A program made the position numbers and the translations under genes. Shown here in pieces: positions 3,423 through 13,260 of a DNA stretch of 14,618 bases (positions are counted from its first letter, which is position 1; each line of letters opens with the position of its first letter). A model generated the notes under the pieces. The model had not been told where the DNA came from and did no database searches. It was given only the letters and a program-made list of their open reading frames with translations. Source of the stretch: a bacterium (GTDB taxonomy: Bacteria; CAIJMQ01; JAADFP01); the NCBI GenBank assembly GCA_027021085.1, contig JALUVB010000054.1:1-14618 (forward strand). The letters run 5' to 3'.

Positions 3423-3560
3423 ATGAAAAGGACTTATCAACCGCATAACAGGAGAAGGAAAAGAAAACTCGGTTTTCTTGCCCGCTCCTCGAGTAAGGCA
3501 GGAAGAAATATTTTGATGCGCAGAAGAAGAAGAGGAAGGAAAGTACTCACCCCGGCATGA
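3423..3560 (+). CDS. rpmH: Large ribosomal subunit protein bL34
   Basis: L34 is a small, very basic protein of the large ribosomal subunit that contacts 23S rRNA. This short gene encodes 45 residues, the normal size. It begins [20 protein letters not shown], the family signature, followed by an Arg-rich run and the C-terminal KVLTPA. The start is fixed by homology and by the AAAAGGAG ribosome-binding site. The stop codon overlaps the start of yidD as ATGA (3557-3560). In most bacteria rnpA (RNase P protein) lies directly downstream of rpmH, and here it does not. rpmH is also usually near dnaA and the replication origin, whereas here lon precedes it on the same strand. Identification is certain despite the small size. 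Confidence 0.97.
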
Positions 3561-3766
3561 AAAACCTTCTTATCTGGTTAATAAAGGGATACAGGATTTT
3601 TGTTTCTCCTGTCCTGCCCCCTTCCTGCAGGTTTTACCCAAGCTGTTCGGAGTATTGCATAGAATCCCTGCAGAAGAAAGGCGTCCTAAAAGGCATGTGG
3701 ATGGGGATAAGGAGAGTAGTGCGATGCAATCCCTTTTCCCGCGGTGGTTATGACCCGGTAAAATAA
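3557..3766 (+). CDS. yidD: Membrane protein insertion efficiency factor YidD
   Basis: YidD is a small inner-membrane-associated protein that assists YidC/Sec-dependent insertion of membrane proteins. The 69-residue product has the family pattern: an amphipathic N-terminus with [10 protein letters not shown], the cysteine-containing core [11 protein letters not shown], and a C-terminal [13 protein letters not shown]. Three cysteines in the core and a fourth in RCNPF match the family. The ATG overlaps the rpmH stop by 4 bases and has no ribosome-binding site of its own, so it is probably translated by coupling to rpmH. yidC starts 10 bases after its stop. The rpmH-yidD-yidC order is conserved across bacteria, except that rnpA is missing here. 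Confidence 0.95.
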
Positions 3767-3776
3767 TAATATTATC

Positions 3777-5477
3777 ATGGATAAAAAAACACTTTACATA
3801 TTTTTATTGCTCTTTTTCTTTCTGCTCCTGATTCAGTATGCATCCCGCCTGAATCCTCCCAAGCAGGAGAAACAGCCGGAAAAAGCGGTTGTTTCCGTGG
3901 TTTCCCCCCTTAACAAAGAAGCAGATATAAAGAGCAGCCATCGCGCCTCCCTGAGAGAAAACTGGGGAAGGTTAGAGGTTTCCAGCTGGGGAGGAGTATC
4001 CAGCTGCCGGCTGAGGGATTTTAAGGAAAGGGATTATGCTCTCAAAACCCTGGCAGAGGAAGAAAAGAGATTAAGGGCTTCTTACCCTCGCCTTTCCCAG
4101 CAGGAAAAGGCCATAGCTTCCTACCGCCTTACCAAGCTTGAGAAATCGTACAAGTATTTCCAGGATTCTGCCGGCAAAGAAGTGGAAATGATTTCCTTCC
4201 CGGAGGTTTTCTGGGCACATCTTCCCCCTTACTTCACCTACATGGATACTCGCGGTACTCCCCTTATCTCCGACAGCGCGCGTTCTCCTTACAAAATAAG
4301 AAAGCAGGGAAAGAAGATAATCCTGGAAAAAGAAGTAGACGGGATAACCATAATCAAGGAATTGTCTCCTTCCTCCTCCCCCTACCTGTTAAACTGCAGG
4401 ATTCAGCTGAAGAGCTCTTCTCCTCTGCCGGCCGGGAATATCAGGGTTTCGGTGGGGCCTGATGTGGGCTACAGGGAAGGCGGGAGAACCTATGCCTACG
4501 AGGGCCCGGTAACTTACATCGACGACAAGTATCAGAAAGTCACCTTCTCCCGCCGGGAGAAAGGAAAGAAAAGCGAAATTGTAAAATACGGCAAGGTAAG
4601 CTGGGTTGCTATCCAAAACACCTATTTTACCCAGATACTGCTTCCCAAAGACTCGGAGATAGCCTGGTTTTCCAAGAATGAGTATGATGAATACCTCTCC
4701 GGCATACAATGGGAAATACCCGCCGAGAGCAAGAAAAACAGCCGCTCCTTTGAATTCTCCCTTTATTTCGGGCCTAAAAAGATAGAACCGCTCAGGACAC
4801 TGGGGAAAAACGCGGAATTTATCGTGGACCTGGGCTACTTTGGCAACCTTTTCCGCATAATTTATGTGCTGAAAGCCCTTTTCCGGCTTACCCATAACTA
4901 CGGCTGGGCCATAGTACTCCTTACCATTATGGTAAACCTGGTTCTTCTGCCTCTCTCTCTAAAGAGCTTCCATTCCATGAAGGCAATGCAGAAATTGCAT
5001 CCCCAGGTAGAGGAACTGAAAAAGAAACTCAGGGACAATCCCCAGAAATTGAACAAGGAGATTATGGAGCTTTACCGCAAACGGGGGGTTAGCCCTCTGG
5101 GGGGCTGCCTGCCCATGCTCTTCCAGATGCCCGTGTTTTTTGCCCTTTTCACTACCTTACGGAGTGCAATAGAACTGAGAGGAGCCCCCTTCATCTGGTG
5201 GATTAAGGACCTCTCTCTGCCCGATACCCTTTTCGTTATAAAGGGGTTCCCCATTCACATACTGCCCGTGCTCATGGGAGGAGCTACCCTGCTCCAGCAG
5301 CGATTAACCGGCTCAGAAGCCCAGAATCCTATGATGTCCTCCTTCATGCCTATCTTCTTGCTCTTTATCTTCTACAACTTCCCCTCGGGATTGGTGCTCT
5401 ACTGGTTTGTAAACAGTATTCTTAGTATAATACAGCAGGTATGGGTGTTAAAGTTCTCCTCTATCTCCTCTTCCTGA
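3777..5477 (+). CDS. yidC: Membrane protein insertase YidC (Oxa1 family, diderm type)
   Basis: YidC inserts and folds membrane proteins in the cytoplasmic membrane, alone or with SecYEG. Its classical clients include the c and a subunits of rotary ATPases. The 566-residue protein has an N-terminal membrane anchor (about residues 5-24), a large periplasmic beta-rich P1 domain (about 50-340) and the conserved five-helix insertase core (about 350-560). The core contains the amphipathic and coiled-coil hairpin around KSFHSMKAMQKLHPQ, then NPLGGCLP-like VSPLGGCLPMLFQMP and FPSGLVLYWFVNSILSIIQQ. The P1 domain is typical of Gram-negative bacteria. By eye, the hydrophilic-groove arginine (E. coli Arg366, Bacillus Arg72/73) aligns with Asn387 in TIMVNLVLLPL. 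The end of the gene overlaps the following AsmA-like gene by 37 bases. Identification is certain; how the Asn substitution affects function is unknown. Confidence 0.97.
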   Translation: MDKKTLYIFLLLFFFLLLIQYASRLNPPKQEKQPEKAVVSVVSPLNKEADIKSSHRASLRENWGRLEVSSWGGVSSCRLRDFKERDYALKTLAEEEKRLRASYPRLSQQEKAIASYRLTKLEKSYKYFQDSAGKEVEMISFPEVFWAHLPPYFTYMDTRGTPLISDSARSPYKIRKQGKKIILEKEVDGITIIKELSPSSSPYLLNCRIQLKSSSPLPAGNIRVSVGPDVGYREGGRTYAYEGPVTYIDDKYQKVTFSRREKGKKSEIVKYGKVSWVAIQNTYFTQILLPKDSEIAWFSKNEYDEYLSGIQWEIPAESKKNSRSFEFSLYFGPKKIEPLRTLGKNAEFIVDLGYFGNLFRIIYVLKALFRLTHNYGWAIVLLTIMVNLVLLPLSLKSFHSMKAMQKLHPQVEELKKKLRDNPQKLNKEIMELYRKRGVSPLGGCLPMLFQMPVFFALFTTLRSAIELRGAPFIWWIKDLSLPDTLFVIKGFPIHILPVLMGGATLLQQRLTGSEAQNPMMSSFMPIFLLFIFYNFPSGLVLYWFVNSILSIIQQVWVLKFSSISSS

Positions 5478-6517
5478 TTATCTCTTTCCCTGCCTATCCC
5501 AGCTGGAGAGCTGATTTCCAGATAAAAGGCAAGGACATGGGGGTATCTCCCCTGCTCAAATTGCTTCCCCCTTTCTCCCGGAACCAGAGGTGGAATATAG
5601 AGGGCAGAATAAGCCCGGACCTTGAAGTAAGCGGGGACGGAAAGATTTTAAATATCCAGGGGAAAGTTGACTACCAGGACCTCTCCATTACACACACAAT
5701 AGGAAAATTTTATCTTTTCACTCCTTCTTTAAGCCTGCAGGAATTGAAAGTTGAGCGGAAGGAAAAGAAGTGGAAGGTTGAAACCTTGCTTACCTCTCCG
5801 GAGATAGACTACCTGGGATTTACCTTTAAGGACGTGGAAGCTCTCCTTATCATAGAGGACGGTAAGCTTACCCTGAAATCACTGACCTGCGTGCTGGGAG
5901 AAGGGAAAATCCATGTGACGGGAAACATAGACTTGACTGATCCAAAGTTCCCCCTGGATTTCAAAGGTAAAGGAGAGGGCATAAAACTGGAAAACATAAC
6001 CTTTCATCCCGGCAAGGGCAAACTGCACGTTCGCTTTCGCATAAAGGGAAACGGTATTGACCCGGCCTCGTTAAACGGCTGGGCAAAGTTAGAGGTTAAA
6101 AATGGTGAATTGGGCCGGCTTCCAGTAATCCTGGAGATATTTTCCTTGCTTTTCAAGGGTACATCCCGGGCTTCTTTGCATTCGGCAAAGGGGGACTTTA
6201 AAATCAGGGACGGGTTTGCCTATACCGATAACCTGGAGTTGAGGGGGAAGGGGGTATCTGTTTTAGCCAAGGGATATGTGGGGTGGAATCGCAAGCTGGA
6301 TTTCCTGATTTTCTTCAAAATTTCCCAGGAATTATTAAGGTTTACTCCCTTAACAAAGTTGGTAGGGATGGTAATCGACCAGCTGGGCAATGGCCTGGTC
6401 AGGTTGAGAGTAACCGGTACAGTGAATAACCGGCAGTACACCATAGTTCCTTTTGCTCTGGGAGGGGACCTGGAAAACCTCTTCAGGAGAATCCTTGGAA
6501 TTGGCAACAATCCGTAA
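5441..6517 (+). CDS. Secreted AsmA-like C-terminal domain protein
   Basis: The 358-residue product starts with a cleavable-looking signal peptide: MGVKVLLYLLFLIISFPAYP, with cleavage likely near residues 19-22. The rest is repetitive beta-strand sequence with alternating hydrophobic residues. The C-terminal third resembles the AsmA-like C-terminal region: GKGEGIKLENITF, LEVKNGELGRLP, then a segment of the form FKIRDGFAYTDNLELRGKGV, ending in LRVTGTVNNRQYTIVPFAL. AsmA-family proteins are elongated envelope proteins linked to lipid transport and outer-membrane assembly. This one is much shorter than E. coli AsmA and has a signal sequence, not a long anchor. The ATG at 5441 is chosen because it supplies the signal peptide; it overlaps yidC by 37 bases. 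The context suggests an envelope role in a diderm, and the position is unusual because jag or mnmE usually follow yidC. The family call is by eye and the exact function is unknown. Confidence 0.7.
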   Translation: MGVKVLLYLLFLIISFPAYPSWRADFQIKGKDMGVSPLLKLLPPFSRNQRWNIEGRISPDLEVSGDGKILNIQGKVDYQDLSITHTIGKFYLFTPSLSLQELKVERKEKKWKVETLLTSPEIDYLGFTFKDVEALLIIEDGKLTLKSLTCVLGEGKIHVTGNIDLTDPKFPLDFKGKGEGIKLENITFHPGKGKLHVRFRIKGNGIDPASLNGWAKLEVKNGELGRLPVILEIFSLLFKGTSRASLHSAKGDFKIRDGFAYTDNLELRGKGVSVLAKGYVGWNRKLDFLIFFKISQELLRFTPLTKLVGMVIDQLGNGLVRLRVTGTVNNRQYTIVPFALGGDLENLFRRILGIGNNP

Positions 6518-8467: not shown

Positions 8468-10916
<2,449 letters not shown>

Positions 10917-10917
<1 letters not shown>

Positions 10918-11489
10918 TGGCACTACAAGAAATAATCGAGAATATTCTGGAAGAAGGGGAAAAGGAGAAGGAAAGGATAATAGGGGAAGCCCTCAAAGCA
11001 ATTGAGAAAGAGAGGGCGGAATTAAAAAAAGAGGGCAAGGCATTGCAAGAGCACCTGCTGGGGGAAATCAAAAAGAAGCTGGCACGGGAAAAAGAGAAAA
11101 AAATCCTTGCCCTGGAACAGGAAGAATCCAGGCTTACCCTGCAGGAAAAAACGAGAAAAATAGACGAGGTGATTTTTGCGGCAATGGAGAGAGTAAAAGA
11201 ACAGAAGGAAATAATCTCAAAATGGCTGGAAGAAAACCTCCTCTCGGCAGTGGAAAAGGGACAGGCAGAAATACACTATCCTTCCTCCTGGAACGACTAC
11301 ATAGATAGCGGGCTAAAAAAGGCATTGCAGGAAAAGGCAGGAGGGAAAATAGATTTCAAACCGCAGGAGGAAAAAGAAATAATCGTCATTAAACAGGGAA
11401 GAAAAGAAACCACCATCTCCCTGCAAGAATTCTTCCTCTCGCAGCAGGAAAAATTGAGAACTATGCTCAACAAGCTTCTATTCTCATGA
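10917..11489 (+). CDS. V-type ATP synthase subunit E (peripheral stalk)
   Basis: Subunit E pairs with the H/G coiled coil to form the peripheral stalk linking the membrane stator to the catalytic head. The 190-residue product has a charged coiled-coil N-terminal half (about residues 1-105) and a mixed alpha-beta C-terminal half, the standard subunit E layout. The ATG shares one base with the stop of K (TAATG), and the stop overlaps subunit C by four bases (ATGA). The primary sequence is only weakly diagnostic to the eye. The call leans on this architecture, its length, and the position between K and C, which is the conserved order. Confidence 0.88.
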
Positions 11490-12463
11490 AGGAAACGGCA
11501 GCAGAAAACGTAGAATATGCTTTCCTTGTAGGCAAAATTAGATGCCTCGAGGCACGCCTGATGCATCCCTCTCTCTTTTACCAGCTGGTGGATACTACCT
11601 CCTTTAACGACATCCGGGCCCTCCTTGCCAGCACTGCTTATAAAGACCTGGGTGATACTCCCCTCGGCATGGAGTCCCTCCTGGAAGAAAATCTTCTCCT
11701 GGAAGCCAACGAACTCCATGAACTCTCTCCTTTACCCTCCCCCGTGGCACCGTTCTTGCAGCGCTGGGATATTGCCTACCTGAAAAAAGCCTTTCGTGCC
11801 ATAGCCCTGGACTCTCCCGCGGAGTTCAAAAGAAAAGCATACCTGGCTCCCCAGCTCTACGAAAAAGCCTGCCGTAACAAAAATCCCCTGCTCCTTCCTC
11901 CCCCTTTCTCTCTCTGGCTGAGGAAAGCCCTGCAGATAAAAGAAGAAGATAATTTCCTGGCAGGGGAGCTGTCCATAGAAACCTCCTTCCTCCTGGAATC
12001 CTTGCACACGCCTTTCCCCCTGGTTAAAGAATATTTCAGGCAGGAAATAGATTTTTATAACCTGAAGCTTGCCCTGAGAAAACTTAAGAATTCACCCCTG
12101 CCATTAGACTTCCTTATCCCCGGCGGTACGATATACCTGCGTCATTTTCACCTGCTTGCCAGGGGTGAGGTAGATGCATTTATCCGCTACCTTACTACCT
12201 CCTCTTACGCGCTCCTGGCCCAGGACGCTCTCCCCTACTGGAAAGACAAGGGTGAATCCTGGCGGATAGAAATTAACTTCTGGAAGCTTCGCCTCAAAAT
12301 CCTCTCCCCTGCCAATTACTCCCCCTTTATTCCGGAAGCTGTCTTCTACTACCTTCTGAAAAAAGAGAATGAAATAAGAAACCTGCGCTGGATTATCCAG
12401 AGCAAATCTTCTGGCTGGGAAGAAGAAAAAATAAAAGAAAGGCTGGGACCATTCCATGCTTAA
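11486..12463 (+). CDS. V-type ATP synthase subunit C (AC39/d family)
   Basis: Subunit C sits as a socket on top of the K ring and couples it to the central shaft. The 325-residue product has the usual length and is mostly helical and soluble. The N-terminal YAFLVGKIRCLEARLM followed by LVDTTSFNDIRALLASTAYKDL matches the AC39 family start. The repeated pattern EIDFYNLKLALRKLK and the C-terminal KKENEIRNLRWIIQSK are further family features, including the ENEIRNLR-type motif. The ATG overlaps subunit E by 4 bases, and the end overlaps subunit F by 8 bases. There is no separate ribosome-binding site, suggesting coupled translation. Confidence 0.92.
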   Translation: MKETAAENVEYAFLVGKIRCLEARLMHPSLFYQLVDTTSFNDIRALLASTAYKDLGDTPLGMESLLEENLLLEANELHELSPLPSPVAPFLQRWDIAYLKKAFRAIALDSPAEFKRKAYLAPQLYEKACRNKNPLLLPPPFSLWLRKALQIKEEDNFLAGELSIETSFLLESLHTPFPLVKEYFRQEIDFYNLKLALRKLKNSPLPLDFLIPGGTIYLRHFHLLARGEVDAFIRYLTTSSYALLAQDALPYWKDKGESWRIEINFWKLRLKILSPANYSPFIPEAVFYYLLKKENEIRNLRWIIQSKSSGWEEEKIKERLGPFHA

Positions 12464-12825: not shown

Positions 12826-13146
12826 ATGATAGGATTGGATGTTTTTGCCTTTCTGTATCTTTTGGCTGTAGCAGTGGCTGTTTCTCTCCTCATGTACTAT
12901 GCTTTCAAGGTAAAAGTTCCCGGTAAGTACCTTGCCTCGCTCATCTGGGCCTGGATAGGAGCCTGGATAGGCACGCCAGTGTTTGGCAAGTGGTTCAAGG
13001 ATATAAGCTATACAAACTACCAGACGAAAATAAGCATTTACATCGTGCCGGCTATAATCGGTGCCATATCCCTTCTCTACCTCTACCACTCCTTTGCCCT
13101 TTGCATGGGCTGGAAATACGAGGAAGAGAAGAAAGCTAAGAAGTAA
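12826..13146 (+). CDS. Small three-helix membrane protein, possibly distant GlsB/YeaQ/YmgE-like
   Basis: The 106-residue product has three predicted membrane helices (about residues 7-27, 35-53 and 70-92) and a lysine/glutamate-rich cytoplasmic tail. A strong AAGGAGGT ribosome-binding site at 12813-12820, 5 bases before the ATG, makes it a real and probably well-expressed gene. The middle helix contains a glycine repeat (WIGAWIGTPVFG, a GxxxG motif) after a PGK turn. The third helix reads YIVPAIIGAISLLYLY. This layout recalls the small GlsB/YeaQ/YmgE (transglycosylase-associated) stress proteins: PGK, then a GxxGAxxG helix, then a helix like VIGALLVLWIY. The resemblance is loose and by eye. 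It appears to have its own promoter and to lie upstream of tRNA-Asn in the same unit. Function is unknown. Confidence 0.75.
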   Translation: MIGLDVFAFLYLLAVAVAVSLLMYYAFKVKVPGKYLASLIWAWIGAWIGTPVFGKWFKDISYTNYQTKISIYIVPAIIGAISLLYLYHSFALCMGWKYEEEKKAKK

Positions 13147-13168: not shown

Positions 13169-13241
13169 TCCCCGGTAGCTCAGCAGGTAGAGCAGCGGAC
13201 TGTTAATCCGCGGGCCACAGGTTCGAGTCCTGTCCGGGGAG
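13169..13241 (+). tRNA. tRNA-Asn (anticodon GUU)
   Basis: A complete cloverleaf folds: acceptor stem TCCCCGG/CCGGGGA, D arm GCTC...GAGC, anticodon stem GCGGA/TCCGC with loop CTGTTAA (anticodon GTT at 13202-13204), five-base variable loop, and T arm ACAGG-TTCGAGT-CCTGT. Base 13241 (G) is the discriminator. The 3' CCA is not encoded, so the CCA-adding enzyme must supply it. The gene begins 22 bases after the membrane protein gene and is probably co-transcribed with it. Confidence 0.97.
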
Positions 13242-13260
13242 CTAAAAATTAGGCTCGCTG

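Follow-up and report, generated by a model that had tools for sequence, protein, structure and literature searches.

The RNase P protein gene rnpA has almost certainly been relocated in the uncultured bacterium studied here, which would rely on an ordinary ribonucleoprotein RNase P, composed of a class A RNA and a divergent RnpA, and not on an Aquifex-like replacement. The stretch of DNA that we analyzed (14,618 nucleotides, referred to as the window) is contig C54 of a MAG of 307 contigs. The usual gene order, as in E. coli and many other bacteria, is rpmH-rnpA-yidD-yidC (review, PMC10941002). The window retains the order and orientation of rpmH, yidD, and yidC in this cluster but differs from it in that rnpA lies outside, elsewhere in the genome.

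Direct overlap of rpmH and yidD

On the forward strand of the window, rpmH (positions 3423 to 3560) encodes the 45-residue ribosomal protein L34 (PF00468, 69.3 bits; TIGR01030, 56.3 bits), and its TGA stop codon lies inside an ATGA (3557 to 3560, same strand) at which yidD begins. The yidD gene (3557 to 3766, forward) encodes a membrane protein insertion efficiency factor of 69 residues (PF01809, 107.4 bits; TIGR00278, 87.5 bits) and is followed on the same strand by an ORF for the 566-residue membrane protein insertase YidC (3777 to 5477), which has 55 relatives among the genome contigs, the closest two showing 94% and 86% identity. From rpmH to yidC, the forward strand holds no further ORF of 40 or more residues, and no ORF the size of an rnpA gene separates or spans rpmH and yidD. 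In Thermus, rnpA overlaps rpmH out of frame; such an arrangement is excluded here, because no such ORF exists and the sole six-frame match to PF00825 falls on another contig, C44. Thus, the absence of rnpA between rpmH and yidD, which the initial annotation had deduced from the ATGA overlap, is real, as confirmed by the ORF list and a six-frame Pfam scan of the whole genome. The direct overlap probably couples the translation of rpmH and yidD.

As the background for this spacing, we used 36 unrelated loci, fetched via yidC, in which both rpmH and yidD were located automatically, and measured how far the YidD motif lies from the rpmH stop. This distance is 384 to 583 bases in 32 of the 36 loci, which is enough for rnpA, versus 66 bases in the window. 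The remaining four (L061, L063, L067, and L071) show 110 to 112 bases and are all marine Neomarinimicrobiota/TMED6 contigs, which likewise carry no rnpA between rpmH and yidD.

Two other regions of the window were also noted. The ORF that comes after yidC (5441 to 6517) has weak AsmA/YhdP similarity, in the position occupied by jag and mnmE in many bacteria. Further on (8468 to 12463), the genes for subunit I and C/AC39 of a V-type ATPase and their neighbors lie directly downstream of parA-parB-like genes, here in a bacterium.

A divergent RnpA encoded on another contig

The single PF00825 match in the six-frame Pfam scan of the window's own genome (C44:13528-13803) belongs to an rnpA gene at C44:13504-13875, encoding a protein of 123 residues. 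Like bacterial RnpA proteins, it passes both curated family cutoffs, clearly for PF00825 (53.6 to 54.1 bits; cutoff, 22.3) and narrowly for NCBIfam TIGR00188 (39.5 bits; cutoff, 38.35). The protein carries AVKRNRIRRIIR, and the RNR motif region (AVxRNRxKR) is kept intact as AVKRNRIRR; the same region reads AVKRNLIRR in G001, an independent MAG of the same genus (Caldisericota bacterium M_MaxBin.041). The closest solved structures are RNase P proteins, although the match is weak (E value of 0.004). In other respects the protein departs from typical RnpAs: it is divergent, with at most 27% identity in the alignment to RnpAs outside the genus, its family scores are low, and its gene neighborhood is new.

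Upstream of the C44 rnpA and divergent from it lie an HNH endonuclease gene, then yacG, and then a gene with a bifunctional-nuclease domain, while a DUF4175 gene is located directly downstream. In G001, rnpA has identical neighbors, with 85% DNA identity across 3.27 kb, and because rnpA and its neighbors are shared in this way, C44 is not a stray contig. The tetranucleotide usage of C44 correlates with that of the window at an r of 0.94, compared with 0.66 to 0.75 for three unrelated loci. It could be argued that the C44 rnpA stems from a contaminant and that the organism itself lacks the gene, as the bin has an estimated contamination of 3.87% and no rnpA is detectable in the sister family. 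However, the synteny with G001 and the agreement in tetranucleotide usage make contamination highly unlikely, and the HNH and bifunctional-nuclease genes adjoining rnpA also have counterparts in the sister family. In the 307-contig assembly, C54 and C44 are separate contigs, and relocation here means relocation to another contig.

RNase P RNA and its presumed substrate

In bacterial RNase P, which acts on pre-tRNAs, catalysis is carried out by the RNA, with RnpA as its cofactor. The window's genome encodes a bacterial class A RNase P RNA at C238:3608-3951, which aligns with positions 1 to 367 of RF00010 at 207.6 bits (gathering score, 100); this rnpB is full length and its conserved core is intact. 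An Rfam scan of the window returned nothing but a tRNA-Asn(GTT) on the forward strand (13169 to 13242; ARAGORN; Rfam, 71.6 bits). This tRNA starts 22 bases downstream of an ORF ending at 13146 and therefore probably carries a 5' leader, so it is presumably a substrate of RNase P.

From these gene positions we infer the direction of change: rnpA would have left the rpmH-rnpA-yidD-yidC cluster, rpmH and yidD would then have become directly joined through the ATGA overlap, and rnpA would now reside, in the window's genus, on another contig between the HNH and DUF4175 genes. As predicted from sequence, the relocated rnpA would be expressed and its product would form a holoenzyme with the class A RNA, the divergent RnpA binding and stimulating the RNA in the processing of tRNA 5' ends.

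Comparison with the Aquifex arrangement

The rpmH-yidD-yidC order is also that of Aquifex, which is without RnpA (review, PMC10941002), and the reduced gene order of the window is identical to those of Aquifex aeolicus and A. pyrophilus, both with HARP. On this likeness one could propose that a HARP-type protein-only enzyme has replaced the RNA-based RNase P. The window's genome differs from Aquifex, however, in that it keeps both rnpA and rnpB, and no HARP was found in it. PF08745 and TIGR03875 are two of the families used to recognize HARP (PMC6380272); neither gave a match in the window's genome, a MAG with a few percent missing, whereas both models detected the archaeal controls Methanocaldococcus and Haloferax. 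The only HARP match in the class, a weak one in G005 of the sister family, is a PIN-TRAM protein below both cutoffs. Replacement by HARP is consequently very improbable. The Aquifex comparison is a fair lead, but gene order here does not settle the enzyme type. Of the two explanations offered by the initial annotation, a moved rnpA and a HARP-type RNase P, only the first agrees with the data; the annotation had also held that a normal rnpA elsewhere together with rnpB would reduce the matter to mere relocation, and that combination is what C44 and the class A rnpB on C238 provide.

Conservation of the junction in close relatives

The ATGA junction is identical in two contigs of G001 (L035 and L036), and the overlap is also kept in L098 (G002), from a second genus of the window's family. 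The window aligns with L035 and L036 without a break through the junction, at 87 to 88% identity. As independent contigs of the same genus and a second genus all show it, the ATGA overlap is conserved at the family level and is no assembly artifact. The proposal that a misjoined assembly dropped rnpA at this junction, raised as an alternative in the initial annotation, has no point in its favor, runs against both the unbroken alignment with L035 and L036 and the recurrence in a second genus, and can practically be dismissed. Separately, the M_MaxBin.041 bin carries two versions of the rpmH-yidD-yidC region (L035 and L036), with YidC proteins 94% and 86% identical to that of the window; these paired versions indicate that the bin comprises two strains or species.

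The sister family without detectable RnpA

The other family in the class is represented by four genomes, G003 to G006 (about 96, 92, 84, and 81% complete, respectively; loci L099 to L102, L092, and L093). None of the four has rnpA between rpmH and yidD, where only short gaps are found, and none gave a PF00825 match at an E value of 0.001. A custom RnpA profile returned only a 22-position chance match in this family (E value of 0.26). For G004 (14 contigs, 1.47 Mb), a search with all HMMER filters off yielded no RnpA, the top score being 10 bits for an unrelated ORF. Three further candidates in the family (L107, L108, and L121) were rejected as weak chance matches in unrelated frames. At the locus corresponding to that of the C44 rnpA, an MgtE-like gene stands in place of rnpA in G003, G004, and G006; the HNH and bifunctional-nuclease genes are both present in G004 and G006, and the G003 contig stops short of the latter gene. 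G004 and G006 have a class A rnpB with an intact core, the search for rnpB returned nothing in G003 and G005, and PF08745 and TIGR03875 revealed no HARP in any of the four genomes.

If the gaps are independent, the probability that incompleteness alone hides rnpA in all four genomes is roughly 1 in 10,000 (0.04 × 0.08 × 0.16 × 0.19); therefore, RnpA in the sister family has either diverged beyond recognition or gone. We judge divergence the more likely of the two, because RnpA is short and already low scoring in the window's genus. The alternative, that the sister family has lost RnpA, has no HARP, and keeps a class A RNase P RNA acting alone or with an unrelated protein, with the window's genus as an intermediate stage, is possible but rather unlikely. 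Our search of the literature available to us found no account of bacteria with RNase P RNA but without RnpA. PF00825 likewise had no match in three of the four Neomarinimicrobiota/TMED6 genomes, and this may be the same effect as in the sister family. The RnpA match in the TMED6 genome G041 was set aside as evidence, since it adjoins a second yidC contig and the MAG looks mixed.

Taken together, the rpmH-yidD overlap is by itself no proof of RnpA loss or of a HARP enzyme, and the finding in the window's genome is an ordinary relocation and no new way of tRNA processing. The part worth following up is the sister family, in which RnpA is possibly missing while the RNase P RNA persists, a situation that would be relevant to whether bacterial RNase P RNA can act in vivo without its usual protein.
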